A stretch of 23,488 nucleotides of DNA from a virus. The stretch is taken from positions 1 through 23,488 of the IMG/VR virus record IMGVR_UViG_3300010148_000124; one strand, 5' to 3'. Below, piece by piece: positions 1,307 to 23,488 of the stretch (the stretch's first letter is position 1; each line of letters starts with the position of its first letter). The notes below the pieces were generated by a model, which was not told the DNA's origin, ran no database searches, and saw only the letters and a list, made by a program, of their open reading frames with translations. A program made the translations under genes and the position numbers.

Positions 1307-1310
1307 ATAG

Positions 1311-3707: not shown

Positions 3708-3718
3708 ATAAAAACAAC

Positions 3719-3735
3719 TATTATATTATATTATG
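3719..3735 (+). repeat. A/T pentamer-repeat leader at the scaffold gene start
   Basis: Period-five copies of TTATA run directly into the ATG at 3733. The same arrangement, slightly longer, precedes the gene at 6842. The tract holds no purine-rich ribosome site. It may act as an unstructured leader or as part of a late promoter; the sequence alone does not decide this. Confidence 0.6.
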
Positions 3736-4938: not shown

Positions 4939-4958
4939 CAACAACTAAAAATTAAAAA

Positions 4959-6446: not shown

Positions 6447-6477
6447 TTATTGTTTAACATTTAAAAGAATAGAAATT

Positions 6478-6777
6478 ATGGGATACGTAAAAGTAAAAAA
6501 AGCTGCAGGTGCATTTGATCTTGTGTGTGCAGAAAATGTAGGTACAGTTAAAGCTTCTGGAACAGGAACTTCATTAAAAATTGCAATAGCATATATTGGA
6601 GGCGCTTCTGACAGTGACATTCTTACACTAACTTCTACTAATGATGGTAGCGCTGGTGGAGGATTTGTTCAAGCAGATGTTCAAAATTTAGTTGAAGCTA
6701 TTGGAAAAATTGGTGGAGGATCGGGAACGATTGAAGTCAGTATGTCTAATACTTTAGCTAGTGCTGCGTTAGCTTAA
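6478..6777 (+). CDS. Small capsid-associated (decoration or head-fibre type) protein
   Basis: This 99-residue protein is rich in G, A, S, T and V and looks wholly beta (VGTVKASGTGTSLKIAIAY, DILTLTS), with a Gly-rich turn GGGSG and an Ala-rich C-terminus. It starts 31 bases after the capsid stop and is followed 15 bases later by a strong terminator, so capsid and this gene appear to end one highly expressed transcription unit. Small proteins directly downstream of capsid genes are often decoration or cement proteins. That role is inferred from context; no family motif is recognised with certainty. It has no signal peptide or membrane segment. Confidence 0.7.
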   Translation: MGYVKVKKAAGAFDLVCAENVGTVKASGTGTSLKIAIAYIGGASDSDILTLTSTNDGSAGGGFVQADVQNLVEAIGKIGGGSGTIEVSMSNTLASAALA

Positions 6778-6792
6778 TCAAAACAATAATAA

Positions 6793-6818
6793 GATCCCGC
6801 TTCGGCGGGGTCTTTTTT
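6793..6818 (+). terminator. Rho-independent terminator after the capsid unit
   Basis: An 8-bp stem (6793-6800 with 6805-6812) closed by a TTCG tetraloop is followed by six T residues. One pair is a T-G wobble. It is a strongly GC-rich island in very AT-rich DNA. It lies 15 bases after the stop of the 99-residue protein gene and 23 bases before the next ATG. Confidence 0.93.
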
Positions 6819-6820
6819 AA

Positions 6821-6844
6821 ATTATTATATTATATTATATTATG
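6821..6844 (+). repeat. A/T pentamer-repeat leader at the 260-residue protein gene
   Basis: The bases between the terminator and the ATG at 6842 are period-five TTATA repeats, matching the leader at 3719-3735. If the terminator is efficient, transcription of the next gene must come from readthrough, or from a promoter in or near this short tract. Confidence 0.6.
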
Positions 6845-7624
6845 GAAACAAAAGAAAAAAAAGCTCCAGCTAAAGCTGAAGTTAAAAAAGATACTTGGGA
6901 GTATAAAGATAGAAGTTATTATTTATTAAATGACAAAACTCCTTTAACATATACAATAATGTCAAAACACTCTAGAAGATATCCTTGTGTTTGGTTTGAT
7001 CCAGACAAAGGTTATGAAAGAGAGTTAAGATATGCGACTAATCAAAAATCTATATTTGTAGATGAACAAAATGGTCCTGCTACTTTAGCGCATATTGTTT
7101 TTGATGAAGGACATTTATATGTTAAAAAAGAAAAAAGAAACTTGCAAGAATTTTTAGCTAAACACCCACATAATGGTGTTTTATTTGCTGAGTTTGATCC
7201 AATAGTAGAAGCAGAAGATCAATACGACTTTTTAGAACTAGAGTTAGAAGCTATGAATATAGCTACTAATATGGATATAGATCAATTAGAAGCTATATTA
7301 AGAGTGGAAGTAGGTAGCAGTGTAAATAGTTTATCTAGTAAAGAACTTAAAAGAGATGGTTTGCTTTTCGCTAAGTCAAATCCAAAACTTTTTATAGATC
7401 TTTCTGAAGATGAAAACGTTGTTCTTAGAAACTTTGCTATAAGAGCTACTGAAGCTAGAATAATTATTTTAGCAGAAGACCAAAGAACTTTTAAATGGGG
7501 TAGTAATGGACGTAAATTAATGAGTGTACCATTTGATGAAAACCCTTACTCAGCTATGGCTGCTTGGTTTAAAACAGATGAAGGACTTGAAGTTTATAAA
7601 TCAATAGAGAAAAAACTTAAATAA
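6842..7624 (+). CDS. Conserved phage protein of unknown function, head-tail module
   Basis: The product has 260 residues. The first 20 are K/A/E-rich and probably disordered. The remainder looks globular: a beta-rich part with SKHSRRYPCVWFDP and ELRYATNQKSIFVDEQNGPA (about residues 40-85), then a helical part (120-200) and a conserved-looking C-terminus, FDENPYSAMAAWFKTDEG. From memory, similar proteins occur in uncultured marine phages beside capsid and connector genes, without a known function. It stands alone between two strong terminators, suggesting a separately tuned expression level. It could be a head-completion protein or a tail-assembly factor; nothing visible decides this. No catalytic motif was found. 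Confidence 0.85.
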   Translation: METKEKKAPAKAEVKKDTWEYKDRSYYLLNDKTPLTYTIMSKHSRRYPCVWFDPDKGYERELRYATNQKSIFVDEQNGPATLAHIVFDEGHLYVKKEKRNLQEFLAKHPHNGVLFAEFDPIVEAEDQYDFLELELEAMNIATNMDIDQLEAILRVEVGSSVNSLSSKELKRDGLLFAKSNPKLFIDLSEDENVVLRNFAIRATEARIIILAEDQRTFKWGSNGRKLMSVPFDENPYSAMAAWFKTDEGLEVYKSIEKKLK

Positions 7625-7640
7625 CAAGTGATAATAATTA

Positions 7641-7667
7641 AGGCGGCTATGCGGCCGCCTTTTTTTT
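7641..7667 (+). terminator. Rho-independent terminator before the connector genes
   Basis: Inverted arms AGGCGGC (7641-7647) and GCCGCCT (7654-7660) enclose a six-base loop and are followed by seven T residues. A7640 can add one more pair with T7661. The next ATG, at 7680, is only 12 bases after the T tract, so the downstream operon depends on readthrough or on a promoter lying further upstream. Confidence 0.92.
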
Positions 7668-7679
7668 AAAAAAATTAAA

Positions 7680-8426
7680 ATGGCAATAAACGTAAATACA
7701 GTATATACAACAGTATTGAGTATATTAAACAAAGAACAAAGAGGTTATTTAACACCTTTTGAGTTTAATAAATTAGCTACTCAAGTACAGTTAGAAACAT
7801 TTGAAAAGTTTTTTGACGACTATAATCAATATTTACGTATGCCAAAAACAGATGTAGATTTTGCATCTAGGATGGAGAATATTAGAAACCAATTTCAAAT
7901 ATTCAATAAAAATGCAAGTGCTTCCGCAGTATCAAACAATGTGTATACTCAGCCAACCGATCTATATAGATTTGGTTCTGCGTTTTATGAAACTGGTAAA
8001 AACTCTCCAGAAATACAAATAGTTAGTAGAAGAGAATTACATCAACAAAATCTTTCTCCATTAACTCAACCTACTACTAATTTCCCTATAGCTACATATC
8101 AAGATAATAAACTAACAGTTTCACCTGCAGTTACTTCGCCAGCAGTATCTGATGTAGGTTTTAATTACATTAGAAAACCAGCTGACGTAGTTTGGGCTTA
8201 TGGTGTAGATACTACAACTGGTGCTTTTATATGGGATGGAACTCCTGGTTTTGCAATAACACCTATTATAGGTGGCGCTTCTGTTAACTTTGAAATAAGT
8301 GATATTCAACAAACAGAAGTTATACTTAAAATATTACAATATTCTGGTGTAGTAATAAGAGATCCTAACATAGTACAGGCTGCTGCAAGAGAGTTACAAG
8401 AAGAAGAAGTAAATTCAAAAAGATAA
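7680..8426 (+). CDS. Head-tail connector/ring-type structural protein
   Basis: The 248-residue product opens with a helical segment (VNTVYTTVLSILNKEQRGYL, then TPFEFNKLATQVQLETFEKF) and continues as beta-rich sequence with many T, V and P residues. I recall similar N-termini in structural proteins of crAss-like and other Bacteroidota podoviruses, encoded just before the tail-tube gene, but cannot verify this here. It overlaps nothing and is followed after 3 bases by the next gene, so the two are probably translationally coupled. The position between head and tail genes supports a ring or adaptor role at the neck. No enzymatic motif is visible. Confidence 0.72.
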   Translation: MAINVNTVYTTVLSILNKEQRGYLTPFEFNKLATQVQLETFEKFFDDYNQYLRMPKTDVDFASRMENIRNQFQIFNKNASASAVSNNVYTQPTDLYRFGSAFYETGKNSPEIQIVSRRELHQQNLSPLTQPTTNFPIATYQDNKLTVSPAVTSPAVSDVGFNYIRKPADVVWAYGVDTTTGAFIWDGTPGFAITPIIGGASVNFEISDIQQTEVILKILQYSGVVIRDPNIVQAAARELQEEEVNSKR

Positions 8427-8429
8427 TAC

Positions 8430-9569
8430 ATGGGACTTATTAAAGAAACTAATGCTCAATACTATGCTGGTCAACAAGGTTTTAGTGGGCTGACAACTAA
8501 CACTATTACTTGGACAGGTAATGTAGATTTAGTAATAAATAGTTCTACTACTAACACTAATTTTAGTTTATTAAAAAATGGTGTTGTATTAAATTATGGT
8601 GCTGGAGCTACAGAATATCAAGCTTCTGGTAATGTTATAACACTTGGAACTACGCTAGTAGCTAGCGACATTGTGTTGATTAAGCTACAAACTCCTACAA
8701 TATGGGATAATTATGGTAGTTATGCTTATACAAGTTTAGTAGACATCGTTAATAATTTTATGGTAGCTTACGTAGGATTAGATAAGTTGTTACCTAGAGC
8801 AAATAGATCAGATGTTATATTCCACGCTAAAAGAGGTTTACAAGAGTTTTCTTACGATACATTAAAATCTGTTAACTCACAAGAAGTTGTAATACCGCCA
8901 AGCTTATCTATACCTTTACCACAAGATTATGTCAACTACGTACAATTATCTTGGGTTGATAAATCAGGTGTTAAGCATGTAATATATCCAACTAGGTTAA
9001 CAAGTAATCCAACAGAACCTATACTTCAAGATGATAATGGTGACTATGCTCAAGGTAGTTTAGGTCAAAATCTACAACCTGCGGAATCTGAAACTGACAA
9101 ACGTTGGAAAACAAACAACACTTTAGATATAACAGGACAGTTAACTGATGAAATATTTGACAATGCAAATGTTTATGATTGGCAATGGTGGAAAATGGCT
9201 TACGGCCAAAGATATGGCTTAGATCCTGAAACATCACAAAAAAATGGGTGGTTTACTATAAATGAAAGAGAAGGTAAGTTTAGTTTCTCAAGTGACTTAG
9301 CTAATCAGTTAATTATAATAGAATACATCTCTGACGGCTTACAAAGTGATTTAAATAGTAAAGTACCTAAAATGGCAGAAGATGCTTTATATGCTCATAT
9401 AATGCACTCTATGGTAGCTTCTAGAGCTAACTTTCCTGAATATATAGTTCAAAGATATAGAAGAGAGAGATCTGCTAAGTTAAGAAATGCTAAAATAAGA
9501 TTAAGTAATATTAAGTTAGAAGAATTTACTCAAGTTATGAGAGGTAAATCTAAATGGATTAAACATTAA
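8430..9569 (+). CDS. Tail tube/adaptor-like protein
   Basis: The protein has 379 residues. The first 90 or so are a beta module (NTITWTGNVDLVINSS, NVITLGTTLVASDIVLIKL). The core from about residue 95 includes ANRSDVIFHAKRGLQEFSYD and then a beta stretch (QEVVIPPSLSIPLPQDYVNY), an arrangement I associate with podoviral adaptor or tail-tube proteins of the P22 gp4/T7 gp11 type. The C-terminal 80 residues are helical and strongly basic (IVQRYRRERSAKLRNAKIRL), fitting a surface that packs against neighbouring subunits or DNA. It starts 3 bases after the previous stop, and the next gene starts 2 bases after its own. The assignment is by context and remembered similarity, not by a search. Confidence 0.7.
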   Translation: MGLIKETNAQYYAGQQGFSGLTTNTITWTGNVDLVINSSTTNTNFSLLKNGVVLNYGAGATEYQASGNVITLGTTLVASDIVLIKLQTPTIWDNYGSYAYTSLVDIVNNFMVAYVGLDKLLPRANRSDVIFHAKRGLQEFSYDTLKSVNSQEVVIPPSLSIPLPQDYVNYVQLSWVDKSGVKHVIYPTRLTSNPTEPILQDDNGDYAQGSLGQNLQPAESETDKRWKTNNTLDITGQLTDEIFDNANVYDWQWWKMAYGQRYGLDPETSQKNGWFTINEREGKFSFSSDLANQLIIIEYISDGLQSDLNSKVPKMAEDALYAHIMHSMVASRANFPEYIVQRYRRERSAKLRNAKIRLSNIKLEEFTQVMRGKSKWIKH

Positions 9570-9571
9570 TT

Positions 9572-12500
9572 ATGCCACAAACTATAAATACATTTGTAAA
9601 ATCTAAAATGAACAAAGACCTAGATGATAGGTTATTGTCTAATGGTGAATATAGAGATGCTCAAAATGTAAATGTAAGTAGATCAGAAGGCGAAGACGTA
9701 GGTGCTTTAGAAAATGTATTAGGTAATACTTTATTATCTGATTTTGGTTTAAGCGCTATACCTAATTTAGAAATAATTGGATTTTTATCAGAAGAAGTTA
9801 CTAATAGAAACTTTTTTATAGCAACTAACTATACAGATGTATCAAGCGATGAACTTAGCAATCCTGCACCTTACGGAGCTAGTTGCTACATACTAATGAG
9901 AGACAATAATTCTAATACAAGTAGTATTTTGGTTGAAGGTAGATTTTTAAATTTTTCCAAAACACACCCTGTTTATGGTATAGATTTAGTAGAAGATTTA
10001 TTATTTTGGACAGACAATAGGAATCAACCAAGAAAAATAAATATAGATAAAGCTATAGCTTCAAACACGTATTATACTACAGAAGATTCTATATCAGTTG
10101 CTAAGTATTTACCTTATAATGCACCATATTTACACAGCAGTGTTTCAGTCCAGCCTACCACAGTAACTCAAAACGTAGCTTATCCATCTCCTAGAACAGA
10201 TTTATATACAAAAGTAGTAGTTTCAGATACAGATATTTTAAAAGTATTGCCTGGAATGGTTTTAAATTGCAATGTAGACGATGTTTATGTAACAGAGGTT
10301 TATCCAAATTCTAATCCTGCTGTAGATTCTTATTTTATAATAAGCAATAATAGTTTAAGCGCTACAACACTTAGTAATTTTTTAAATACTACTAATCCAT
10401 GCACGCTTAGGTTTCCATCTTCACAAAATAAAACGTCTCCCTATCTTTCCCCTAGTTCTAGTGGTAAAGTATCTGCTGACGTTACAAGTACATCAGTGAC
10501 AATAAATGATATAGTTGGTGATTTTCCAAGAGTAGGTATGAAAATGACTTGTCCAGGTAAAGATAGTGCTTGGGATTCTACAGGTGGCATTTCAAATTAT
10601 CCTTTTGTAATAACAGCAGTTACTAGAGTTACTACAGTTGACTCGACTGGGGCTACTGTCGCGCCTAATGACGTTAATCCACCGTATCCTAACGTAGGAA
10701 CAGTAGATATAACATTAAATTATTATCCAGTTGTTAATGGTGATGCTAGCGCTAACAATCCTATAATACTAGAGGGAGATATAGTTCAATTTTCAGCTCA
10801 AAATCCTTATTATGTTTCTAATTGGCCAGGTGATGAAGAGTTTTTAACTGACAAGTTTGTAAGATTTGCATACAGGTTTAAATTTGATGATGGAGAATAT
10901 TCAGTAATATCTCCGTTTACTCAACCTACTTTTATACCTAAACAACATGGATGGGTTATAGATAGTCCAACAGCTGACGATACTAAAACTTATTCAAAAC
11001 AAGAAGATGAAATAGGAGCTAGTACTATTGTTTCTTTTATGGAAAACGATATAAATAACGTTTCTTTAAATATAGAAACTCCTCACATAGTTAATCAGCT
11101 GCAAGACAAGCTTAAAATTGAAGAAATAGATATTTTATATAAAGAGTCAGACGCATTAGCTATTCAACTTGTTGAAACTATATCTGTAACAGATGATTTA
11201 ATTGCTAATAATACCACTAATATTTTAACATATGAGTATCAATCTAAAAAACCTTTTAGAACTCTACCTGAAAAAGAAACTACTAGAGTATTTGATAAAG
11301 TACCAGTAAGAGCTCTCTCACAATCAGTTGTTGGTAATAGGGTTGTTTATGGTAATTTTTTAGATAAGCACACTCCACCTGAAAATTTACAATATAATGT
11401 AGGTGTCAGTGAAAAGTATGACATGTCGGAAATTAATACTACTAGTGCTGTCACAACTAAACCTATAGCGGATTTTTCAAGAATATCTTATCCGAACCAT
11501 TCGGTAAAACAAAATAGAACTTATCAAGTTGGCATAGTGCTAGCTGATAAATACGGCAGGCAATCAGATGTAATTTTATCTGATCCACAAACAACTCAAT
11601 CTACTTTTGGTGGCCAAGTTTTTTCAGGTTCTACATTTTACCATCCATATAAAACATTTCAGCTCGCTGCTAGTGGAGGTGCTGAAACTCAAATTAATGA
11701 TTGGAAATTAGACAGTATAAAAGTATTATTTAGAGATAATATTCCAGAAACACAAACAGGTGAACATGCAGAAGGCTATCCAGGTCTTTATAAATCTGGC
11801 GAGTACACTGCTTTAGTAACTCCAGCAATAACTAGCACAAATGAAATTGTTGTAAGTAGTTTAGATCCTAATATAGCTGTAGGTGATATTATTAATTTAA
11901 GTGGAACAGTTGTAAGTATAAAAGCTATAGATGCTTCTGCTAAAAAAATAACAGTTTCAAGACCGGTTACTATATCAAACAATACTACTATAACAATAAA
12001 CGGTCCTGCAAATAAACTAGGATGGTATAGTTATAAAATAGTTGTTAAGCAAACCGAACAAGATTATTACAATCTATACTTACCTAATATATGTTTAGCT
12101 AGTCAAGAGTCTGCTTTAATGAACTCTTATGGAAGTAATGCAGATAATTTTTTAACAACTCAAAGTTATTATACTTCTTTAATATCTGACAACATAAATA
12201 AAGTATCATTAGATTTACAAGAGGTACAACCTGAGCAAACTCAATTTAGAACAAGTGATGACATACTTTTCCCAAGAATAGGATTTAACCCTGAACTTCC
12301 TACTGCTTCAAGTGCTTATTATCCATTTAGCTCCAACTTTCACCATGGACAAAACTTTGTTACAGTAAATAACGTAGGTAAAGTAACGGATATGGGTCTA
12401 CAGCAAGTAAACTTAGATGGTGTTTCTTTAGGTAGAATAACTGGATTTACTGGTGGAACCGGCGCAACTGCTGGGACGGTAGTTTACAACGTACCTGTAG

Positions 12501-12988
12501 TTGGTGGATCTGGGACTGGAGCTAGAGCTAAAGTTGCTGTTACAACCGGCACTACTGTAGATTATGTAGTAATCACTAATACAGGGAGAGATTATAAAGC
12601 TTCTGATACTTTTACTATAGCAGCTTACTCTTCTGGTACTACTGGATATATAGATGGTCAATCACAGTGGACAGTAGCTATTTCTATTGCCGCTTCTAAT
12701 TGGACAATTACACCTGATAAAGGAACAGACACTTCTCCACTTACTGCAGCTGGTATATATAACGCTAGTTCTAATCCAAGTACGATGCAACTTAGTACTA
12801 GTGAAAGTTTTATAATAGGTAATGAGGCTAATGCTAGAAATAATGTTTTTAGCGCTTTAGAAATAAAACCGTTAGACTCTAGATTAGACATCTATTGGGA
12901 AAGTTCTACGTCTGGATTGATCTCAGAATTAAATTCTGAAATATCCTCGGGTGATAGTGCTACTCCAACTCCTATTAAACCTAGATAA
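9572..12988 (+). CDS. Large tail (stabilization/nozzle-like) protein
   Basis: The product has 1138 residues and is almost entirely beta. Its N-terminus (KSKMNKDLDDRLLSNGEYRD, then AQNVNVSRSEGEDVGALENV) is a pattern I recall from large tail proteins of marine and crAss-like podoviruses, often annotated as stabilization or tail tubular protein. Regions near residues 212-284, 296-388 and 745-812 look like small beta modules set into the main fold. Residues about 954-1040 are Gly/Thr-rich with the pattern VVITNTGRDYKASDTFTI, a module seen in many phage structural proteins. The C-terminus has LDIYWESSTSGLISELN and a proline-rich end. It would form the short tail nozzle below the adaptor. The next gene follows after 10 bases and may be a split-off partner. 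Role inferred. Confidence 0.75.
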   Translation: MPQTINTFVKSKMNKDLDDRLLSNGEYRDAQNVNVSRSEGEDVGALENVLGNTLLSDFGLSAIPNLEIIGFLSEEVTNRNFFIATNYTDVSSDELSNPAPYGASCYILMRDNNSNTSSILVEGRFLNFSKTHPVYGIDLVEDLLFWTDNRNQPRKINIDKAIASNTYYTTEDSISVAKYLPYNAPYLHSSVSVQPTTVTQNVAYPSPRTDLYTKVVVSDTDILKVLPGMVLNCNVDDVYVTEVYPNSNPAVDSYFIISNNSLSATTLSNFLNTTNPCTLRFPSSQNKTSPYLSPSSSGKVSADVTSTSVTINDIVGDFPRVGMKMTCPGKDSAWDSTGGISNYPFVITAVTRVTTVDSTGATVAPNDVNPPYPNVGTVDITLNYYPVVNGDASANNPIILEGDIVQFSAQNPYYVSNWPGDEEFLTDKFVRFAYRFKFDDGEYSVISPFTQPTFIPKQHGWVIDSPTADDTKTYSKQEDEIGASTIVSFMENDINNVSLNIETPHIVNQLQDKLKIEEIDILYKESDALAIQLVETISVTDDLIANNTTNILTYEYQSKKPFRTLPEKETTRVFDKVPVRALSQSVVGNRVVYGNFLDKHTPPENLQYNVGVSEKYDMSEINTTSAVTTKPIADFSRISYPNHSVKQNRTYQVGIVLADKYGRQSDVILSDPQTTQSTFGGQVFSGSTFYHPYKTFQLAASGGAETQINDWKLDSIKVLFRDNIPETQTGEHAEGYPGLYKSGEYTALVTPAITSTNEIVVSSLDPNIAVGDIINLSGTVVSIKAIDASAKKITVSRPVTISNNTTITINGPANKLGWYSYKIVVKQTEQDYYNLYLPNICLASQESALMNSYGSNADNFLTTQSYYTSLISDNINKVSLDLQEVQPEQTQFRTSDDILFPRIGFNPELPTASSAYYPFSSNFHHGQNFVTVNNVGKVTDMGLQQVNLDGVSLGRITGFTGGTGATAGTVVYNVPVVGGSGTGARAKVAVTTGTTVDYVVITNTGRDYKASDTFTIAAYSSGTTGYIDGQSQWTVAISIAASNWTITPDKGTDTSPLTAAGIYNASSNPSTMQLSTSESFIIGNEANARNNVFSALEIKPLDSRLDIYWESSTSGLISELNSEISSGDSATPTPIKPR

Positions 12989-12998
12989 ATAAAAAAAT

Positions 12999-14711
12999 AT
13001 GGCTCGTCAAGTTGAAGTAGATTTTTACAACACATATGTATTAAGGAAAGTTAATAGTGCTTACAGAGTTGTTAAGGTTGGTAGTGATTTCAATTATTCA
13101 CCAACTCAAGCAGTTACTTGGGGTATAGCTCCACTAGGCATAGGTTACGATACTAAACCTTTTCCTAATGTAGATGCTAGAAGGTGGTATATAGAGGAAT
13201 CTAGAATAAGAGGTGGCTTTAACAACACCTCAACTGGTCAGGGTGTAAGAGCATATCTTGACGAAGAAAACCCTCTTCAACAACGTAGAGTTAATACACT
13301 TATATATTCTGGCATATACAATTCTAGAACAGGAGTAAATCAAACAAACGTATTCAGCGTTGGAGATGATATAACTAAGTCAGTTGATATATCTTTTGGT
13401 AGTATTCAAAAAACATATTCAGAAGATACTAATTTAATTGTTTTTCAAGAAAATAGAATACAAAGAGCTTTAATAGATAAAGATACTATATATACAACTG
13501 AAAGTGGTACTCAAACTCAAGCTGGAGCAGCTGTTATAGGTCAATTTGTACCATACAAGGGAGAGTATGGAATAAGTAAAAACCCAGAATCTTTTGCAAT
13601 ATATAACTATAGGAAATATTTTTCAGATAAAAATCGTAACGCTGTAATGAGGTTATCTAACGATGGGTTAACTGAAATAAGTATGTACGGAATGCAAGAT
13701 TACTTTAGAGATAATTTAGCAGAAATAGATATTAGTAATACTCAACAAAGTTTTACAGCTACACAAACTGGAGGAGGTACAACTAGCGACACTCTTGTTT
13801 CAGTTACAACTTCTTCAATAACTACTGGGCAAAACATAACACCAGGTATGCAAATATCATTAGCTGGAGTTGTACAAACAGGATATATAACATATGTTGA
13901 AGTTAGTGGTGCTAATACTAATATATTTTACTCTCAACTCTTTACATCGACATTATCTGGATCTTTAACATTTTTATATAACACTAAAGGAAAAATAATT
14001 GGTGGTTGGGATATACATAATAAAAATTATGTTTTGTCTTTACAAAAAAATTCAAACCAAGTAAGCACTGATGAAGCAACTTACAAAACATTATCTTTTG
14101 ATGAGCGTATAAATGGTTGGGTTAGCTTTTTTACTTATAAACCCAATTTAATGTTTAGTACTTTAAATAAGTTTTATAGTATTCAAAACTACAAACTATA
14201 TAGTCATTATCACGTTAACTCTGACAATGATACAAGGGGTAGTTTTTATGGAGTAAGAAAACCTTCTAATGTTACTTTTGTATTTAATGCACAGCCTAAC
14301 ATAACTAAAAACTTTAACACCATATTTTACGAAGGTAGTAATGGTTGGGAAGTAGAGGTGTTTAAATCTGGGTTCACTGGTCAAGATCCAAACCCAAGTG
14401 GCGCTGCAGGATCTTACGTGCAAAGCAATGATTCTATTATATCTATAAAAAGTTATGACGAAGGATCTTATGTAGATGCTAATACTGGTTATACTTTAAG
14501 AGCTGGTTTTGATAGAAAAGAAAATAGGTATGTAGCTAATTTAAGAAATAATTCAGCTGCTGCCACTGGTGAAATACTATTTGGAGCTCAAATGAGTGGT
14601 ATTAAAGGTTATTTTGCTACAGTTAAAATTGAAACAGATGAGACGACTCAATTGGGTGGTCCTAAAGAGTTGTGGGCCGCTGGAACTAATTACGTAATGT
14701 CATCATATTAA
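12999..14711 (+). CDS. Beta-rich tail protein, probable nozzle/propeller partner
   Basis: This 570-residue protein opens with MARQVEVDFYNTYVLRKVNS and contains repeated segments of aromatic and glycine-rich strands (for example GGWDIHNKNYVLSLQ, SFDERINGWVSFFTYK, MFSTLNKFYSIQNYKLYS), which suggest a beta-propeller, as in podoviral tail nozzles. RRWYIEESRIRGGFNN near residue 62 looks like a conserved block. Residues about 251-327 form a T/S/G-rich insert resembling the beta modules of the upstream 1138-residue protein. The gene begins 10 bases after that gene and is translated without a Shine-Dalgarno sequence. It may act in complex with its neighbour, or the two may be one ancestral gene that split. 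A receptor-binding role is possible but nothing here shows it. Confidence 0.72.
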   Translation: MARQVEVDFYNTYVLRKVNSAYRVVKVGSDFNYSPTQAVTWGIAPLGIGYDTKPFPNVDARRWYIEESRIRGGFNNTSTGQGVRAYLDEENPLQQRRVNTLIYSGIYNSRTGVNQTNVFSVGDDITKSVDISFGSIQKTYSEDTNLIVFQENRIQRALIDKDTIYTTESGTQTQAGAAVIGQFVPYKGEYGISKNPESFAIYNYRKYFSDKNRNAVMRLSNDGLTEISMYGMQDYFRDNLAEIDISNTQQSFTATQTGGGTTSDTLVSVTTSSITTGQNITPGMQISLAGVVQTGYITYVEVSGANTNIFYSQLFTSTLSGSLTFLYNTKGKIIGGWDIHNKNYVLSLQKNSNQVSTDEATYKTLSFDERINGWVSFFTYKPNLMFSTLNKFYSIQNYKLYSHYHVNSDNDTRGSFYGVRKPSNVTFVFNAQPNITKNFNTIFYEGSNGWEVEVFKSGFTGQDPNPSGAAGSYVQSNDSIISIKSYDEGSYVDANTGYTLRAGFDRKENRYVANLRNNSAAATGEILFGAQMSGIKGYFATVKIETDETTQLGGPKELWAAGTNYVMSSY

Positions 14712-14724
14712 ATTAAATTAAATG
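14706..14724 (+). repeat. A/T pentamer-repeat leader of the GNAT-like gene
   Basis: Three period-five copies of ATTAA begin in the last codons of the preceding gene and lead into the ATG at 14722. The spacing resembles the TTATA leaders at 3719 and 6821, with a different pentamer. No ribosome-binding purine run is present. Confidence 0.5.
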
Positions 14725-15126
14725 GAATTAAACGTAAGAAATCTTACAGAAAAAGATTATAAACTTTTAACAAAGTGGTGGTTAGACTGGGGTTGGGATC
14801 CAGTTCCTCAAGACATGCTACCTGATAATGGTAAAAGCGGTGTTATGATACAAGACGGTAAAAAACCTATAATAGCAGGATTTTTATTTTGGAGTAACTC
14901 TAATGTTGTTTGGTTTGACTGGATAATATCAGATAGATATTGTAGTAAAATAACAAGAGCAAAAGCATTGATAACCTTACTAAGCATAGTTGAAGAAATG
15001 GTTGAAAATGCTGGTAAAAAATATATAATAACTATTAGCGATAATAAAAGTTTAATATCAACTTTTAAAAAAAATAATTGGTATGTGGATGAGGATCCTC
15101 TACATAAAATAATAAAAAAAATATAA
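14722..15126 (+). CDS. GNAT-like acetyltransferase domain protein
   Basis: The 134-residue protein has the outline of a small GNAT fold: an N-terminal strand and helix (LNVRNLTEKDYKLLTKWWLD), a central hairpin (SGVMIQDGKKPIIAGFLFW, NVVWFDWIISD), a helix after the expected acetyl-CoA loop, and a late strand and helix (KYIITISDNKSLISTFKKNN) with the common NKSL turn. I recall similar proteins in marine phages beside internal virion genes. The acetyl-CoA loop is unusual: where GNATs have R/Q-x-x-G-x-G/A, this protein has SKITRAKAL and no glycine, so binding or activity may be altered. The product could modify a host or virion protein, but no substrate is indicated. The gene sits between tail and internal-protein genes, with a 3-base gap to the next. 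Confidence 0.75.
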   Translation: MELNVRNLTEKDYKLLTKWWLDWGWDPVPQDMLPDNGKSGVMIQDGKKPIIAGFLFWSNSNVVWFDWIISDRYCSKITRAKALITLLSIVEEMVENAGKKYIITISDNKSLISTFKKNNWYVDEDPLHKIIKKI

Positions 15127-15129
15127 GAT

Positions 15130-15708
15130 ATGGGAGGTTGTAGAAGTAATGAATATAAAGAAGCTGCAGAGGAATTATCTCAAGAAGCAGCTGATGACTT
15201 GCTAAGATTAAGAAAAGAAGCTAAAGACGCTATAAATGATAGGTCTAAAGAATTAGATGCATTAGTTGCTAATAGACAAGATGTTATAAATCCATATGCT
15301 AATTTAACTAACGAGTACGCTAATCTAGGTGTAGCTACTCAAGCTGCAGAGTTTCAAGCTGAACAAACTGATATTGCTTTAGCAAATACATTAGATAACC
15401 TAGCTGCCAGTGGAGCTAGTGCTGGTGGAGCTACTGCTTTAGCTCAAGCAGCTTTACAAAGTAAAAAAGGTATATCAGCTAGCATTCAACAACAAGAAGC
15501 TGCTAATCAAAAACTAGCTGCTCAAGGTGCTGCGAATGTAGCTAGGATGAAAGCTGAAGGAGAGAAATTTGCTTTTAGTATCACTGAAAAGAGAGAACAA
15601 CAAGAAATTGATAGACAATCTAATTTATTAGATCAAGAAAAACAAGCGTTGAGCGATGCTTTAGATCAACAACAATTTGCTGAAGATAATACATTCGTAG
15701 AAAATTAA
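15130..15708 (+). CDS. Small internal virion protein (T7 gp14-like)
   Basis: The 192-residue product starts with MGGCRSNEY and is then almost entirely helical, rich in A, Q, E and K with no proline after residue 60. A central Gly/Ala-rich segment (residues about 93-113, ASGASAGGATALAQAAL) separates two long amphipathic helices and could be a membrane-interacting hinge. Position before two larger proteins in a row, together with this composition, matches the smallest of three podoviral ejection proteins, which in T7 (gp14) forms the outer-membrane part of the ejection conduit. Identity with that family is inferred from order and composition. The gene has a 3-base gap upstream and a 5-base gap downstream, so it is tightly coupled. 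Confidence 0.65.
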   Translation: MGGCRSNEYKEAAEELSQEAADDLLRLRKEAKDAINDRSKELDALVANRQDVINPYANLTNEYANLGVATQAAEFQAEQTDIALANTLDNLAASGASAGGATALAQAALQSKKGISASIQQQEAANQKLAAQGAANVARMKAEGEKFAFSITEKREQQEIDRQSNLLDQEKQALSDALDQQQFAEDNTFVEN

Positions 15709-15713
15709 AAAAA

Positions 15714-17117
15714 ATGAGTTATAGAAGTCCAAATAAAACAACTAATAATTCTTCTACTTCAAGTGGCTATTCTAATTCTATTGCCATGGCACTTAGAGAT
15801 GACGAGATACAAGAAGCTAGGATTAAAGCCAATATATCTTCTTTAATACAAGGAGGTTTAAATGCTGTTTTAGCTAAACAAGATGGTTTAAATAACTTAA
15901 ATAAAAGAGTTACTAAAGCCGATTTAGAAATGTATAATAGAGTTGAGTCAGATGGTTTTAAAACTGGGTATAGTGCTTTTGATAAAAAAGCTGAAAACCT
16001 TATGTTTGATACTATAACTAAATTTAATAAAATCAAAGGTAGTATAGAAAACGGTACTTCTGATGATTTAGAATTAAGCAAACAAGGTTTAGCTTCTATA
16101 AATAGCATGATTGATCAATATGGAGACGCGGTTCCTAATATATTAGCTGTTAGTGAGGCTATAAATAACCAAAGCGCCACCGCTGAACTAAGCGATCAGT
16201 TCAGTGTTACGGGAGCACCAGCACATCAACTAGCTATAATAAGTAAAATAAGTCAAGGTAGTAGTGATATAGATATAATAGAAGAAAATGACAACATAAT
16301 ACTAGTTGATAATAATCCTGGAAAGTGGTATAATGAAGATGAAAACGGTAATTTAACAGAAGGAAAAGGTCCTACAAGATTAAATATTTTTGAATTTAAT
16401 AGAAACTTGCTTAATAAAAATAATCCTTATTTAAAATATAAAGCAGATCCTACAAGAGTAGAATCAGCAGCTTGGAGTGAACTTGTTAAACAAGAGAGTG
16501 GTTACAATCCTAACTACGTAAAAGATGAAGATGGTAAGTACAGTATGACTGTTGAGCAACAAAAAGCTTTTAAAGATAAGGTAACTGGCTTAGCTAATTA
16601 CAAGAAAAATGATAAAGGTTTTTATACTTATTTACCAGGTGATAACAATAATGAATATAACGGGTTTTCTACATTATTAAGAAAAAGAGGAGAGAGTATA
16701 TGGGAAGATGAAGGCAACATGCAAACACTCGTTAAAGAGAAAGGTTTAAAATCTCAATGGCCTAAAGTAATTCCACAACCAGGTACTAAAGAGTTTAATG
16801 AGTTTGTAGAGGGTCAATATATACCTGCCTTGAAATGGTTAGCTGAGGAAACGTTAAGAAAAAATTCTCAAGATATTAAATTAGATCAACCAGGTGATAA
16901 TGTGTCAAGTAATGAAAATAAAACTACTGGTAGTAAGGAAAATAAAAATAAAAAATCTATATGGACTAAAGAAGATATAGATAAATGGAATAAACTTGCG
17001 CCTGGAGAAACACTAGTTGTTGGAGGTTCTACATTTAGAAAAGAAGGTAAAACCGAACAAAATAATGTTCAATCTAGATTAGGTAATATGATGGAAAGTG
17101 AAGCTTTAAATAAATAA
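15714..17117 (+). CDS. Middle internal virion/cargo protein
   Basis: This 467-residue protein is of unrecognised family. The first 20 residues are S/T/N-rich and disordered; residues 25-150 are helical (RIKANISSLIQGGLNAVLAK, QGLASINSMIDQYGDAV). Around residues 250-400 there is a mixed, aromatic-containing domain (AAWSELVKQESGYNPNYV, GFYTYLPGDNNNEYNGF). KQESGYNP recalls the E-S-G-x-x-P motif of lysozyme-like transglycosylases, but the surrounding sequence does not otherwise support that fold. The C-terminal 70 residues are polar and linker-like. It lies between a gp14-like protein and the giant protein, as gp15 lies between gp14 and gp16 in T7, so a packaged and ejected structural role is likely. 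The enzymatic role is unproven. Confidence 0.62.
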   Translation: MSYRSPNKTTNNSSTSSGYSNSIAMALRDDEIQEARIKANISSLIQGGLNAVLAKQDGLNNLNKRVTKADLEMYNRVESDGFKTGYSAFDKKAENLMFDTITKFNKIKGSIENGTSDDLELSKQGLASINSMIDQYGDAVPNILAVSEAINNQSATAELSDQFSVTGAPAHQLAIISKISQGSSDIDIIEENDNIILVDNNPGKWYNEDENGNLTEGKGPTRLNIFEFNRNLLNKNNPYLKYKADPTRVESAAWSELVKQESGYNPNYVKDEDGKYSMTVEQQKAFKDKVTGLANYKKNDKGFYTYLPGDNNNEYNGFSTLLRKRGESIWEDEGNMQTLVKEKGLKSQWPKVIPQPGTKEFNEFVEGQYIPALKWLAEETLRKNSQDIKLDQPGDNVSSNENKTTGSKENKNKKSIWTKEDIDKWNKLAPGETLVVGGSTFRKEGKTEQNNVQSRLGNMMESEALNK

Positions 17118-17123
17118 ATAATT

Positions 17124-20100
17124 ATGGAAGAATTTAGACCACCTGCAGATGCTATAGAAATAGTAATTAATAATTTTTCTCCACCATCAGACGCTATAGA
17201 GGTTTCTCAACAAGACGACGAAAAAAAGAAGAAAGCTGTTACAGAGAACACTGCGAATGTGGCAGCAGAAGATCAAAGCAGTACGGATTTAGTATTGGAA
17301 AATGGTTCATTGGACTCAAGAAAATCAACAAGTGAAAAGTCTTATAAACCTATAAATCTCTACGAACAAATAGATTTAGTTAATGAAGAGTTTGATGAGG
17401 AAACTAAAGATTTTAGGAAATATATTGCCAACGAATTAGTTAAAGATAGAGAAAAAAGAAATAATGAAATATTAAATTCTGGTTTTAAATTAAAAGAAGA
17501 TGGTAAATACACTAATGAAGACTTGATAAAACTTAGAGACCTAGGTGTTGAAGTACCAGAAGAATTAATAACTATACCACTAAAGGATCCTAAAACAATA
17601 GGAGGAAAAAAATTTGAAACAGCTTTAAGACCTGAAAATATAAGTATAATTGAAGATCTTTTTAAAAATGAAGATGGGAAAAGTCCTATTGCTCAAGAAG
17701 TTTTTGAGGTACTTCAAAAAAACAAAGCGCAAGAGTCAAACGATTTAAAAATACTAACAGCTCAAAAAAATGCTTACAAAGATTCTGATATAAATGAATA
17801 CACTACAAATAGACTTAGTAGTTTAGCTGATTTACAAGCTAAGTCTTTTGCTGGAGAAGAAAACTTTAATAAACTTAAAAGTTCATCTACGAAGGAAGAG
17901 AAACAAAAAGTACTGAATGACATATTTGATACTGATAGTGCTGTTGAATTAATAGATGATGATGGTAATTTTATAGAAGCGTCTAAATTAAATAGACAAG
18001 AATTACAGAGACAAAAAAACGAATTAAATGAAGCTATAGAGGAGTATTCTTACATGGCTCCAAATAAGCTTTATAAAGCTTATAATGATATAGAAAACGA
18101 ACTAGTTTCGTTAGGTGCTCAATTATACGATAAAGGAGAAGAAGGTATATTAGAAGAAACTAATTTAGCTCAAAGAGCTAATGAGTTTTTAATAAACCTA
18201 GGAATGGATCCAGCTGAGGGTGATAAAGGACTTCGCGAAGACATGAAGGATTTACAAAAGATGAAAAACACTGGTGAAGCTAGTTCTAACCTATCTTTTA
18301 TACCTAAAAGCGATAATATTTTAGTAAAAAAATATAATAAAAAACTAAAAGAGTTTCAAACAATTCAAACTGCAATTGGTTTAAATGTTGATTTAACTTC
18401 TATAGATAGAGCTAGTACTTTAGATATTTTAGGTATTGAAACAGAGAGAGCTTTAGGTTTTGATAATTCTAGTATAAACCAAATGCAAAATATTATGGTG
18501 AACAATATACTAGATGATAAGCTTAATTTAAAAGCAACTGAACAAGAATTAGAATTATTCGGAGAGCCTGGTGAAGAATATGTTAAACAACCAGATCAAT
18601 TATTAAATACTGAAAGATTAGTTAGTTCACTTCCCGGTCTTACTAAAATGGGTGTTGAAATGGCTGCAACATATTATCTACTAGGAGGATCTGCTAATGT
18701 AGGTAAGATTACTTCAGGTATTGGTGAGGCTGTAGCTGTAAATGTAGCTAAGAGAGGAATAAATATTAACACGGCTAATGTTATAGGTAGATATTCTTCA
18801 GGTGTTATTCAAGAGTCTATAGGGTTAACAGGTAGCAATGTTATAGGAAGTAATGTTTTTGGTTCTGAAAAAATGCCTGTTATACCTTTTGCTGCAGGTA
18901 GTCAGTTAGGTCATTTAGGTGGTAATTGGATTAGCAAAACAATGTTGCCTTCTATTAGGAATATGGCTGTTAAAAACAAGTATCTTGGTACTGTTGTTAA
19001 TTTTTTAGACACGAAAGGTTCTAGCACTATTAATGGTGCTTTAAAATTCGCTGCTAAACCAGCTATAGGTGCTACTTCAATTAAGCTTGGAGAAGGAGTG
19101 TCAGGCGTTGTAGATGTTGTTAAAGATGAAAAAGATTTCAGTGAACTGTGGCATGAGATAACAGATGTTGATAGCTTTTTTGAAACTTACGGTGCTTTAC
19201 TATTTATGGCTGGTGCTAGACCAGATACTTATACTAATAGAGTTGTAGAAAATTTCCATAGAGATATTGATAGATTTAGAGGTAACTCTCCTGAGTGGAA
19301 CTCTATGGCTAGACAATTAGGTTTAACTACTAAGAAAAATGCTAAATGGTCAGACTCTGAGATAAATGAAGCTTTAAATAAAAAGAAAATAGAAATAGTA
19401 GAGAATCAAGATATAACAGCTACTCAAGCCAACGAAATGATTAACAATGCTAAGTATTTAGCGAATAGATTAAAACTTAAAAAAGCTTTAGATCAAGTTA
19501 ATACAAATGTTAAAGCAGAAACTTGGAATACAAAATATAAGAATTTACAGTTAACTATTAAATCTTTAGAGGCTGGAAACGGTATAACCCCACAAGATAT
19601 TATAAATATGACAGAGGCTGGGCTCGCTAATCAAGGAGCTTCTGTTGTTTTAGAATTACAAAAGTTAGGTATTAACGAAGCTGACGCAGTACAGGTTTAT
19701 AAATCTTCAAACTCTTCATATAACCAAGCTAGTAAATATTTTAAAGATCCTAATAGTAAGAACTTTAAAAGCTATTTAGAGAGCACTTCTAAAGAACAGA
19801 CTAACGAAAACATAAAAGAAAACTTAAAAACACAGTTAAAGAATAAAGAAATAAATAAAGTTACTTATGATTTAGAGTTGGAAAGATTAGATGCTGATAT
19901 ATTATTAGAACAAGCAAAACAAAAAACTTTAATAGATATAGCTAGAGGTGATACTCAACAAAGAATAAAAGAAACTTTAGATTATACTGAAGAAGTTAAA
20001 GCAGAAGGTACTGAAGTTAGAGAATTGTCGTCAGAAGAGTTTAATAAGCTTAAATCAGAGTTAACTGGAAAGCAACCAGAAACAATAGGTTATGGATTTC

Positions 20101-23100
20101 AAACAACAATAGATGGTGAAACTGTATTTGTCATTAACAAAGATGCTATGGCACCTCAAGGCGGTAAATATAGATTTGAATCTGGAGGTAAAGAATATGT
20201 AGTAGAAGGTTTTAAAGGATCAACACAAAAGCATGAGCTGTTTCACCCAGTGTTTGAAAGACGTTTTGACCAATCAGCGGTAGATAGTAGAGTTAGACAA
20301 AAAGCAAGAACAAGTAGAGATCTTGAATCTGCTAGAAAAGAAGTTGAAAAAGAAGATTTAGATTATATAGACTCGTTTAAAAATAGATTAAAAGAACTAG
20401 GTGTGTTTAACAGAGTTGAACAAGAGATGATGGAGCGTCCTGGCTATAAGGATTTAATAGAAGGTAATAAAAGGGATGTTCAAATTGAAAAAGAGTTTAT
20501 AAATGAATTTTTAGAACTACAAGGCGAAGGTCAATTAAATAGTTTGTTAGAAGGGGCTAATGTTAAAAAAGTAGGAACAGAAGTTATTGAATTGAAAAAT
20601 GGAGCTGATGTTGCTGACTTCTTCATAACTGGAGTTGAAAAAACACCTGAAGGTAAAGCTGAAGTTAAAAAAGCTTTGGAAGAATATAAAGACATAACCG
20701 GAAAAACAGCATCGATTCAAACATCGGAAAAAATATCTGATATTAAAAGCGTAGGTAAAGACGCTGAAAACATACCCTCTGATCAAGTAGAAAAAATAGC
20801 TAGTAGAGTAGCTGGAGCTGCTTGGAATAAGTACGGTAGTCGTATACCAAAAAACATAGCAGAAGAAGCTGGTATTACTAGAAAGTCATATATTGACGCA
20901 GCTAAAAATGATATACTTACTTCTAAGTGGATTAAAAAATGGAACGGTGAAAGACAACCATTTAATCAGTATGTAGCTAATAAAGGTATGTTAGAATTAA
21001 AAACTTTAGCAACTGAATTAGGTGTAGAGAGTAAAGATGCTCCTGTTAAAAAACGTATTAGTGACAAAATCACAACTGAAGGTGATAGAGAATTTGATGT
21101 TAAGTCTGAAGATCTTACGCCTGAAGAAGCTATGGTGGCTAAGGAGTCTGGTAAAGCTGAAACTATCAAAGAGACTAAAACAATAAATCCATTAGAAGCT
21201 CCAAATGTAAAACCTAAAGCAAAAGAAATTGAAGATGCTATAGACTTCACAGAGGCAGATGCTGTAGGTATGCGTACAGGTGGTTTTAAAAGAGTAGGTG
21301 AAACTTACGGAGGTAAAGCTGCATCAATAGCTTTTGGAGTTCCTGAATCTAAAATAACAGATCCAAAGAAAAATCTTACTTATGCTAAGAAAATCAAAGA
21401 TGGTATTCCAGAGCCATCTGAAGCTGGTAATATTCAACAAGCTTTTACTAACAAAAGTAAAGTAGAAACATTTATAAAAAACTTACCTGAAACAAATGTT
21501 AGTGATATGCAAACTAATATTGGTTTAGAAAAACTAGACGTGTCAAGGGATGTATATGGTTATGGTACTGGAATAAGTAATAGAGTATTAAAAACTTTTT
21601 ATAATAAAACTGGTAAAAGATCTAAAGGTTTAACTAGTCAACCTGCTATATGGGAATTAAAACCAGAGTTTAAAGGTAAAATATCTAATGAGACTATAGC
21701 TAAAGTACAAAAAGAATTAGGTATTACAGAAGCGGGTCAGTTAAATAAGTATGATAGAAACATTGGTCAACTACTTAAAGGAGTTGCTAAGCTAGAGGGT
21801 TATCAAATAGCTAACACAGTTGTAAGAAAGAAGATAGAAGGCATAGATATTAAATCTGCTATACCTAAAAAACAATTATTAGCAGACTTAAAAGCTGGCG
21901 CGAATAAATTTCAAGCATCGGAAAAAATATTTAATGAAACACTAAATAAGAAAAAAATAAAATCTATACCACAATTATTAGGTTCAGAAGCGTTAGTGCC
22001 TAGAATAAAAAAAGTTATGTATGGCGACTTGCTTGATATTGGTGGTAACTTTTTCTATGATGGAAAAAGGTCTAAACTTATAGGATCAGGTGTATTTTCT
22101 TCTAGGGCTGATGTGTTAAAAGCTTTTAAAGATAAGTTTCCGTTAGTAGGAAAATATGAAGTTGGTGTTGACAATTTAACTAGAAGATATGAGAAAGAAA
22201 CAGATAGTAAAGGTGAGTTAATTTACACAAATAAACAGGCTAGAGACAAAGCTGTCAAAGAGATGCAGCCAACGCTTGAAGCTTTGGAAGCTGGATTAAC
22301 TATGGAGGTTGCGGATTTTCAAGCGGAGATAAAGCAGATAATAAAAAGTAACCCTGAGAAATATAAAAAGTTTACTCCTGAGCAAATAAAGCTAATGGAT
22401 AGAGTTGTAAACTCAGAAACTTTAGGTAAAAATCCTGACAATAAAATAAATAGTAATAAAGCTGATTGGAAGAATATTAAAGAAGGTAAAGATTTATTTT
22501 TAGATATTTTTAAAGACGCTTACGAAAAGAATAATAAAAACTTAGATGTTATTGCATACATGCTTTGGCACCCTAATTCTAATTCTCATCCTTTAAGAAA
22601 CTTAGCAACTATAGTAGGTAAGGAAATAGGTAAGGATATAAGATATGAAGAACACATGTTACCTTTTAGTGCTTATTCTAATTTATTATTACAAGGCATA
22701 ACTAAGAATAGAAAAACATGGGATGGTTTGAAAGATTGGTTACACAACAATTACACTCAAGAAGTCATAAGTAATTATACAGGACCCAGAAATGGAGTCT
22801 ATAGTTCTCGAAGTATTCTTGATCATCCAACTAGAGATTTTTCTAAAGATGGTTCTAAATTACCTAAGTGGAGTTCAAAAGACAAATTGCACCCTGAATT
22901 AGAAACACAACTGCAAGAAGCTTTAGAAGGTAAAAGAAAATGGGAAGATGTTATTAGTCCAGATATTAGAAAGTATAATGAATATGGTTCTAAAAGAGGA
23001 TATGTAAATCCCAATAAATTAACTAGATTTGGAGAAACTGATGCCAAAAGATACAATGTTGAAGTACCTAAAAAACTAGAAACCAATTCCAACATAGTAG

Positions 23101-23488
23101 AAATACAAAATCAATTAATACATCAGCAGCTTATAGGTAAGATGAGTGCTAAAGAAGCTAGAGAGATGATAGATATTGCTATTAAAGATGCACCTGCTAG
23201 ATTAGAAGCTACTAAAGCTGACTACAAAATGCTTAGTGAATCTCCAGTGCTTAATTTAAGTGAAAAAATGTCTACCAATGACTTAGTTAAAAAAGCTAAC
23301 ACTATAGACAAAGCTTTAGCTAATGCTAGAAAAATAAAAAAAGAACCTAAAAAAATAAGAGTGTTTGACTTTGACGACACTGTAGGTACTAGTAAAAATA
23401 AGGTGTTTGCTACAAAAGGCAGTGAAAGAAAAGTGCTTAATGCAGAACAGTTTGCTAAAGAAGGTTTAGATCTTATAGATAAAGGTTG
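17124..23488 (+). CDS. Giant multidomain internal virion (polyvalent) protein, 3' end outside window
   Basis: An uninterrupted frame from the ATG at 17124 runs past the window end, giving at least 2121 residues. In order: a duplicated FxPPxDAIE peptide (residues 4-12 and 18-26); charged helical sequence to about 500; a Gly/Ala/hydrophobic block (about 502-700) that could cross or line a membrane channel; helices; strands leading to HELFH (1037-1041), the zinc-binding core of zincin proteases, with E1124 or E1128 as a possible third ligand; a helical domain (about 1218-1300); a domain of unknown type (about 1375-1590); a conserved-looking region with HPNSNSHPLRNLAT and EEHMLPFSAYSN (about 1810-1860); and DFDDT (D2082, D2084), motif I of HAD phosphatases. 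[IF]Q[TA]SEKI occurs at 1198 and 1596. By position it corresponds to T7 gp16, the largest ejected protein; the domains suggest added enzymes. Whether it is packaged is inferred. Confidence 0.85.
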   Translation, partial: MEEFRPPADAIEIVINNFSPPSDAIEVSQQDDEKKKKAVTENTANVAAEDQSSTDLVLENGSLDSRKSTSEKSYKPINLYEQIDLVNEEFDEETKDFRKYIANELVKDREKRNNEILNSGFKLKEDGKYTNEDLIKLRDLGVEVPEELITIPLKDPKTIGGKKFETALRPENISIIEDLFKNEDGKSPIAQEVFEVLQKNKAQESNDLKILTAQKNAYKDSDINEYTTNRLSSLADLQAKSFAGEENFNKLKSSSTKEEKQKVLNDIFDTDSAVELIDDDGNFIEASKLNRQELQRQKNELNEAIEEYSYMAPNKLYKAYNDIENELVSLGAQLYDKGEEGILEETNLAQRANEFLINLGMDPAEGDKGLREDMKDLQKMKNTGEASSNLSFIPKSDNILVKKYNKKLKEFQTIQTAIGLNVDLTSIDRASTLDILGIETERALGFDNSSINQMQNIMVNNILDDKLNLKATEQELELFGEPGEEYVKQPDQLLNTERLVSSLPGLTKMGVEMAATYYLLGGSANVGKITSGIGEAVAVNVAKRGININTANVIGRYSSGVIQESIGLTGSNVIGSNVFGSEKMPVIPFAAGSQLGHLGGNWISKTMLPSIRNMAVKNKYLGTVVNFLDTKGSSTINGALKFAAKPAIGATSIKLGEGVSGVVDVVKDEKDFSELWHEITDVDSFFETYGALLFMAGARPDTYTNRVVENFHRDIDRFRGNSPEWNSMARQLGLTTKKNAKWSDSEINEALNKKKIEIVENQDITATQANEMINNAKYLANRLKLKKALDQVNTNVKAETWNTKYKNLQLTIKSLEAGNGITPQDIINMTEAGLANQGASVVLELQKLGINEADAVQVYKSSNSSYNQASKYFKDPNSKNFKSYLESTSKEQTNENIKENLKTQLKNKEINKVTYDLELERLDADILLEQAKQKTLIDIARGDTQQRIKETLDYTEEVKAEGTEVRELSSEEFNKLKSELTGKQPETIGYGFQTTIDGETVFVINKDAMAPQGGKYRFESGGKEYVVEGFKGSTQKHELFHPVFERRFDQSAVDSRVRQKARTSRDLESARKEVEKEDLDYIDSFKNRLKELGVFNRVEQEMMERPGYKDLIEGNKRDVQIEKEFINEFLELQGEGQLNSLLEGANVKKVGTEVIELKNGADVADFFITGVEKTPEGKAEVKKALEEYKDITGKTASIQTSEKISDIKSVGKDAENIPSDQVEKIASRVAGAAWNKYGSRIPKNIAEEAGITRKSYIDAAKNDILTSKWIKKWNGERQPFNQYVANKGMLELKTLATELGVESKDAPVKKRISDKITTEGDREFDVKSEDLTPEEAMVAKESGKAETIKETKTINPLEAPNVKPKAKEIEDAIDFTEADAVGMRTGGFKRVGETYGGKAASIAFGVPESKITDPKKNLTYAKKIKDGIPEPSEAGNIQQAFTNKSKVETFIKNLPETNVSDMQTNIGLEKLDVSRDVYGYGTGISNRVLKTFYNKTGKRSKGLTSQPAIWELKPEFKGKISNETIAKVQKELGITEAGQLNKYDRNIGQLLKGVAKLEGYQIANTVVRKKIEGIDIKSAIPKKQLLADLKAGANKFQASEKIFNETLNKKKIKSIPQLLGSEALVPRIKKVMYGDLLDIGGNFFYDGKRSKLIGSGVFSSRADVLKAFKDKFPLVGKYEVGVDNLTRRYEKETDSKGELIYTNKQARDKAVKEMQPTLEALEAGLTMEVADFQAEIKQIIKSNPEKYKKFTPEQIKLMDRVVNSETLGKNPDNKINSNKADWKNIKEGKDLFLDIFKDAYEKNNKNLDVIAYMLWHPNSNSHPLRNLATIVGKEIGKDIRYEEHMLPFSAYSNLLLQGITKNRKTWDGLKDWLHNNYTQEVISNYTGPRNGVYSSRSILDHPTRDFSKDGSKLPKWSSKDKLHPELETQLQEALEGKRKWEDVISPDIRKYNEYGSKRGYVNPNKLTRFGETDAKRYNVEVPKKLETNSNIVEIQNQLIHQQLIGKMSAKEAREMIDIAIKDAPARLEATKADYKMLSESPVLNLSEKMSTNDLVKKANTIDKALANARKIKKEPKKIRVFDFDDTVGTSKNKVFATKGSERKVLNAEQFAKEGLDLIDKG
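20717..20738 (+). repeat. In-frame 22-base near-repeat, copy 1
   Basis: It matches 21911-21932 with two mismatches, both in the giant protein gene. It encodes most of IQTSEKI (residues 1198-1204), just before a new helical domain, and includes the rare serine codon TCG. Confidence 0.7.
21911..21932 (+). repeat. In-frame 22-base near-repeat, copy 2
   Basis: It matches 20717-20738 at 20 of 22 bases. It encodes most of FQASEKI (residues 1596-1602), at what looks like a linker between two domains of the giant protein. The two copies lie 1194 bases (398 codons) apart. Confidence 0.7.

Follow-up and report, generated by a model that had tools for sequence, protein, structure and literature searches.

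A giant modular gene product, probably polyvalent cargo, encoded behind the muzzle genes of a crAss-related podovirus

Introduction

Polyvalent proteins are multi-domain proteins with a zincin as hub, encoded in a phage late-gene context (Iyer et al. 2017, PMC5512222). Zincin-mediated processing together with phage delivery is a published theme for these proteins, and strands ahead of the HExxH helix have been described for their zincins (PMC5512222). The N4-type virion RNA polymerase, a giant injected protein, is likewise fused to a zincin (PMC5512222). In crAss001, the genes behind the muzzle encode cargo proteins, for which an N-to-C ejection through the tail was modelled (PMC10172136). The virion RNA polymerase sets of crAss phages (g065 and g066 of phi14:2; gp47, gp49 and gp50 of crAss001) are giant cargo behind the muzzle, and g065 contains an HExxH motif. 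Two further giants are gp101 of the Cellulophaga phages phi40:1 and phi38:1 (Pervagoviridae; 1691 aa, 99.9% match between the two phages) and gp20 of Flavobacterium phage elemo, a structural protein of 3694 aa.

Here, a stretch of 23,488 nucleotides (the window) was analysed computationally; IMG/VR virus record IMGVR_UViG_3300010148_000124 has exactly this length, i.e. the window is the entire record. It ends inside a giant ORF located in the slot occupied by gp101 and by elemo gp20. With gp101 the window giant shares two tandem leader motifs, with gp20 a homologous zincin region (E 3e-12). In contrast to the window giant, no HExxH, HAD or C-terminal module was detected in gp101, while elemo gp20 contains a DUF3293 and lacks an HAD or C-terminal module by profile. 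The difference to the N4-type enzyme is that no polymerase domain was found in the window giant, and no polymerase motif or homologue corresponding to the crAss set was found in it or its relatives. Taken together, the phage is a crAss-related podovirus, and the 2,121 codons of the ORF probably encode the N-terminal part of a polyvalent cargo protein, which would be loaded into the virion, ejected, processed by its zincin and composed of effector modules on a constant C-terminus.

Gene neighbourhood and phage identity

The genes of the window are arranged as follows:

2..9569, plus strand: terminase, portal, capsid and tail genes, ordered as in phi38:1, elemo and Panino
9572..14711, plus strand: tail/muzzle genes (1138 aa and 570 aa), the second with the crAss muzzle C-terminal domain
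14722..15126, plus strand: 134-aa gene in the position of phi40:1 gp98 (virion protein)
15130..15708, plus strand: 192-aa gene in the position of phi40:1 gp99; a homologue lies upstream of the giant in 82 of 82 loci with matches
15714..17117, plus strand: 467-aa gene before the giant, in the position of phi40:1 gp100 (virion protein); 71% identical to L005
17124..23488, plus strand: giant ORF with an ATG start at 17124, 2121 codons, stop-free, 3' end missing

The upstream genes match crAss-related families (terminase phrog_6681, portal phrog_6547 and virion proteins); at an E-value of 4.5e-11, the matches also include the C-terminal domain of the crAss muzzle. Nearly all matches of the muzzle gene in cultured phages are to phages of Flavobacterium, Cellulophaga, Tenacibaculum and Maribacter. 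The order terminase, muzzle, genes behind the muzzle is common to the window, phi38:1, elemo and Panino. Gene order and families therefore identify a crAss-related podovirus, and the T7-like setting assumed for the giant in a preliminary description of this DNA had to be abandoned; a T7 gp16-type internal virion protein was rejected on the basis of the non-T7 gene neighbourhood. With a portal identity of 32–43%, the phage is a distant relative. The muzzle domain and gene order looked for in a comparison with Crassvirales are present; its nearest relatives with a name, phi38:1 included, have Pervagoviridae as their family on record, which lies outside Crassvirales. The phage probably infects Bacteroidota, and it and its uncultured relatives are probably marine. 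A scan of genome contigs for the host gave 11 contigs, most of them small, from mixed MAGs (Flavobacteriaceae/Bacteroidetes for some, Aliivibrio and an archaeon among the others); these are likely mis-binned and were discarded as host evidence. The tail/muzzle protein is encoded by two ORFs in the window and in L005 and is a single protein in phi38:1 and elemo. The 134-aa gene product has, by eye, the look of a GNAT acetyltransferase.

In phi40:1, the annotation 'experimental MS/MS proteomics' is attached to gp97 to gp101, which correspond by position to the muzzle gene, the three genes of 134, 192 and 467 aa and the giant. This includes the counterparts (gp99 and gp100) of the two smaller genes that had been noticed in front of the giant. 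By analogy, the giant of the window phage is probably located in the virion and may be ejected into the host. Zincin, HAD and C-terminal module are all undetectable in gp101 of phi40:1/phi38:1, so that the ties between the window giant and the MS-annotated counterparts are position and leader design only. The earlier view of a giant, ejected multi-domain protein of the polyvalent theme thus held for the multi-domain architecture with protease-like and phosphatase-like parts and for the slot of an MS/MS-annotated protein, whereas ejection is suggested by analogy only. A transmembrane channel within the giant was not supported, as TM-like segments are few. The confirmed relatives (at least 358 in one search and at least 578 in another) connect a large set of uncultured, probably marine phages through a shared position for cargo after the muzzle.

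Extent and coding status of the giant ORF

The frame starting at 17124 runs over 2121 codons to the window end without a stop, as stated in the preliminary description. At a G+C content of about 32%, stops make up 7–8% of random codons, which by composition arithmetic gives a chance below 1e-70 for such an open frame. Over 2,411 bases aligned to L002, 54, 21 and 181 differences fall on codon positions 1, 2 and 3, respectively, a pattern that indicates real coding under purifying selection. The stop codon is absent because the virus record ends there; intact giants are found as single open frames in the IMG/VR relatives L005 (3092 aa), L002 (3212 aa) and L004 (2411 aa). Giants are encoded at 80 loci, a set collected via a search with the C-terminal module, and mostly comprise 2,270–3,700 aa (exception: L064 with an open frame of 1,565 aa). 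Their order is nearly always a single HExxH, a single DFDDT and then about 820–1,170 aa. Judged from the size of the intact relatives, approximately 850–1,000 residues are therefore absent from the window giant, and the ORF most likely covers the N-terminal two thirds of a modular giant with a predicted full size of roughly 3,000 residues.

The protease-like and phosphatase-like motifs reported previously are present as HELFH (from residue 1037) and DFDDT (from residue 2082). The variable parts include large stretches without any family match. An AF2 model of the window giant was of low confidence (pTM 0.35) and gave no significant Foldseek match in the PDB; tblastn with the window and L004 giants against cultured phages gave no match. 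Weak matches to ThrRS (E 0.7–0.9; phmmer, giant vs PDB) were taken as chance.

Leader, zincin region and sigma-like domain

The following features were located within the giant:

17124..17204, plus strand: leader, residues 1-27, a short motif present twice in tandem (MEEFRPPADAIEI / INNFSPPSDAIEV), found by a tandem-copy test
20001..20663, plus strand: zincin-type metallopeptidase region, about residues 960-1180, from HExxH conservation and the distal Glu
20232-20246, plus strand: HELFH, residues 1037-1041, zincin HExxH
20493-20495, plus strand: Glu1124, distal zincin Glu, invariant in 76 of 76 HExxH giants
20850..21089, plus strand: sigma-70-region-2-like domain, residues 1243-1322, from profile matches and a leave-out model
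21078..23488, plus strand: block of exchanged module(s), 89.4% DNA identity to L002 (upstream protein identity about 30%)
23331..23486, plus strand: start of a putative HAD phosphatase, remainder past the window, from motif I and phrog_415 in complete relatives
23367-23381, plus strand: HAD motif I DFDDT, residues 2082-2086, sequence motif

Tandem leader copies were detected at p ≤ 0.02 in 20 of 78 giants compared to 4 of 156 control windows. The motif sequence varies among the giants and it is the two-copy design that recurs, e.g. by eye in phi38:1 gp101 (ELDEFGIPVKK / ELDEFGIPLKK). The N-termini of the giants often carry exactly two tandem copies of a 13–33 aa motif from different sequence families, cases being the window (17124-17204), L013, L026, L028, L053 and L086 (phi38:1 gp101). 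On other genes of the loci no leader motif was found, except in Maribacter phage Panino, where an 88-aa ORF (L087:17950-18216) just 5' of the annotated giant and in another frame is leader-like (E 3.8e-7) with two similar copies. This ORF is explained by a frameshift, by an error in the sequencing or by a wrongly annotated start.

A single HExxH occurs in 76 of 79 giants, compared to 0.44 expected by shuffling. The zincin arrangement of HExxH and a Glu in the next helix is predicted from the sequences of the giants, and the AF2 model of the window giant (overall pTM 0.35) places strands ahead of the HExxH helix. The region is thus a candidate protease that might cleave the giant itself.

The sigma-like domain of the window was recovered with an E-value of 3e-6 by a model built without the window copy and its closest relative. 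It was matched in 59 of 79 giants, a count that is not independent because many of the 59 fed the model; the stronger point is its fixed position, since 57 of 58 measured starts lie 168–302 aa past the HExxH. Pfam Sigma70_r2 matched 3 of 29 members (best E 5.8e-5), and the top two PDB matches of the profile are sigma factors with marginal E-values (0.056 and 0.3). Inside a giant, the domain could also be merely a structural helix bundle. A separate sigma-70-family protein of about 250 aa is encoded in 8 of 11 relatives, six of which are above the Pfam cut-off. The catalytic RNA polymerase g066 of phi14:2 has no counterpart in the 58–66 kb records of the 11 relatives or in four cultured relatives, whereas it matches itself as control; this search was sequence-based, so a very diverged polymerase could escape it, and the records may be incomplete. 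The lack of a polymerase counterpart together with the separate sigma-family protein makes use of the host polymerase plausible and adds weight to the sigma reading. A tentative and rather doubtful extension is that the giant delivers from the virion a sigma-region-2-like domain which, released by the neighbouring zincin, would take over or redirect the RNA polymerase of the host as infection begins and replace the injected polymerase of true crAss phages. If working, such a module would explain the start of transcription in those crAss-related phages in which no virion RNA polymerase has been detected. The gene of the separate sigma-70-family protein (L006:21190-21939, minus strand, and records of seven other relatives) is oriented opposite to the giant; in two records that were checked, it lies about 8–9 kb downstream.

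HAD domain and helical C-terminus

The HAD domain is cut by the window end, 40 residues past the start of DFDDT. The motifs I (DxDxT), II (T), III (K) and IV (DD) are invariant in the complete relatives, motif I alone lying inside the window, and the catalytic residues are invariant across 73 sequences. The domain is nearest to phage polynucleotide kinase families, with phrog_415 matched in complete relatives, and is predicted from sequence to be a phosphatase. Class C acid phosphatases, returned by Foldseek against the PDB, were not significant as structural match (E about 2).

The window's helical C-terminus and most of its HAD domain are deduced from L002, which is 90–98% identical in the overlap. 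In relatives, the helical C-terminus comprises about 650 aa (L002 model: pLDDT 74.6, pTM 0.65). Foldseek with the L002 C-terminal model gave 58 viral matches at E ≤ 1e-3, all of them parts of phage giants, some of which carry the name polyvalent; the structure of the C-terminal domain is thus similar in proteins of that name. By sequence, the check for LPD domains gave no Pfam match, while the C-terminal fold matches proteins named polyvalent/LPD. Against the PDB, nothing was found with the C-terminal profile and no significant match with the C-terminal model. The several distinct effector-type domains per polypeptide that mark polyvalent proteins are represented by the zincin, the sigma-like domain, the HAD and the helical C-terminus. 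Sigma, phosphatase and polynucleotide kinase domains are unmentioned in the main text of Iyer et al. (PMC5512222), and HAD and sigma-like domains recur in the giants analysed here. No description of the combination of zincin, sigma-region-2-like domain, HAD and polyvalent-type C-terminus was found in the open-licence literature, in line with the earlier suspicion that the domain combination may not be described.

Module exchange and alternative explanations

With L005, residues 1-90 share 71% identity and the DNA of 15211-17331 shares 76%. Upstream of 21078, protein identity to L002 is only about 17–37% per 100 residues. These jumps of identity within the gene, from an L005-like front to an L002-like block (21078-23488), show that modules have been exchanged inside the gene; one exchange boundary lies where the sigma-like domain ends. 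Starting from the 192-aa gene and blind to the domains of the giant, another search found the C-terminal module in 14 of 16 ORFs ending inside the locus and HExxH in 14 of 16, and thus the same architecture independently of the giant's domains. The sharp jump near 21078 is what a mis-join would also produce, but an assembly chimaera of two phages is highly improbable, as architecture and length recur in one frame in about 80 separately assembled contigs and the downstream block reaches 89% identity to L002 rather than 100%, its differences following a coding pattern.

That the giant is mainly a structural ejection or channel protein, similar to T7 gp16 or P22 ejection proteins, with decayed or incidental enzyme-like motifs, would fit the virion position, the long helical C-terminus and the large variable parts without family match. 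This is unlikely, since the HAD and HExxH...E catalytic residues are kept in nearly all members amid strongly varying surroundings and the differences on the HAD side are strongly synonymous. It is very unlikely that the giant is a virion RNA polymerase, or a giant associated with one, of the crAss type seen in phi14:2 and crAss001, even though the slot behind the muzzle is where crAss phages encode cargo and the polymerase-associated g065 has an HExxH as well. The DFDIDK of g066 has no equivalent in the window giant, in which the motif D.D.[DG] is absent, the zincin and C-terminal profiles of the giants match g065/g066 unconvincingly, and g066 is without counterpart in the relatives. A crAss virion RNA polymerase was rejected, as neither DxDxD nor homology to g066 was found by profile in the window part and the complete relatives.

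For a polyvalent cargo protein, we infer from the cargo position and the conserved catalytic residues a course in which the giant would be packaged alongside the proteins encoded next to it and would later pass through portal, tail and muzzle to reach the host cell, probably with its N-terminus in front. The zincin would then cleave it into pieces, of which the sigma-region-2-like one may act on host RNA polymerase and the one with the HAD phosphatase on nucleotides or the ends of nucleic acids, while the helical C-terminal domain would be the constant scaffold bearing exchangeable effector modules. Several parts of this course are testable in cultured flavobacterial phages.

Variable modules

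With a constant helical C-terminus, the exchangeable modules would amount to a catalogue of the effectors that may reach the host ahead of all protein synthesis by such phages. The variable modules of some relatives include AAA_33/zeta-toxin kinase domains. According to the search from the 192-aa gene, the giants L114, L148 and L185 and the open-ended L141 and L167 have the helical C-terminus and no HAD motif; a Pfam search for the replacement of the HAD domain in HAD-less giants gave no match. In one of these (L148:12252-18458, about residues 1170-1400), a stretch likewise without Pfam match, GVDVELEYKGVKFGIEVKM, resembles by eye the core of a PD-(D/E)xK nuclease.
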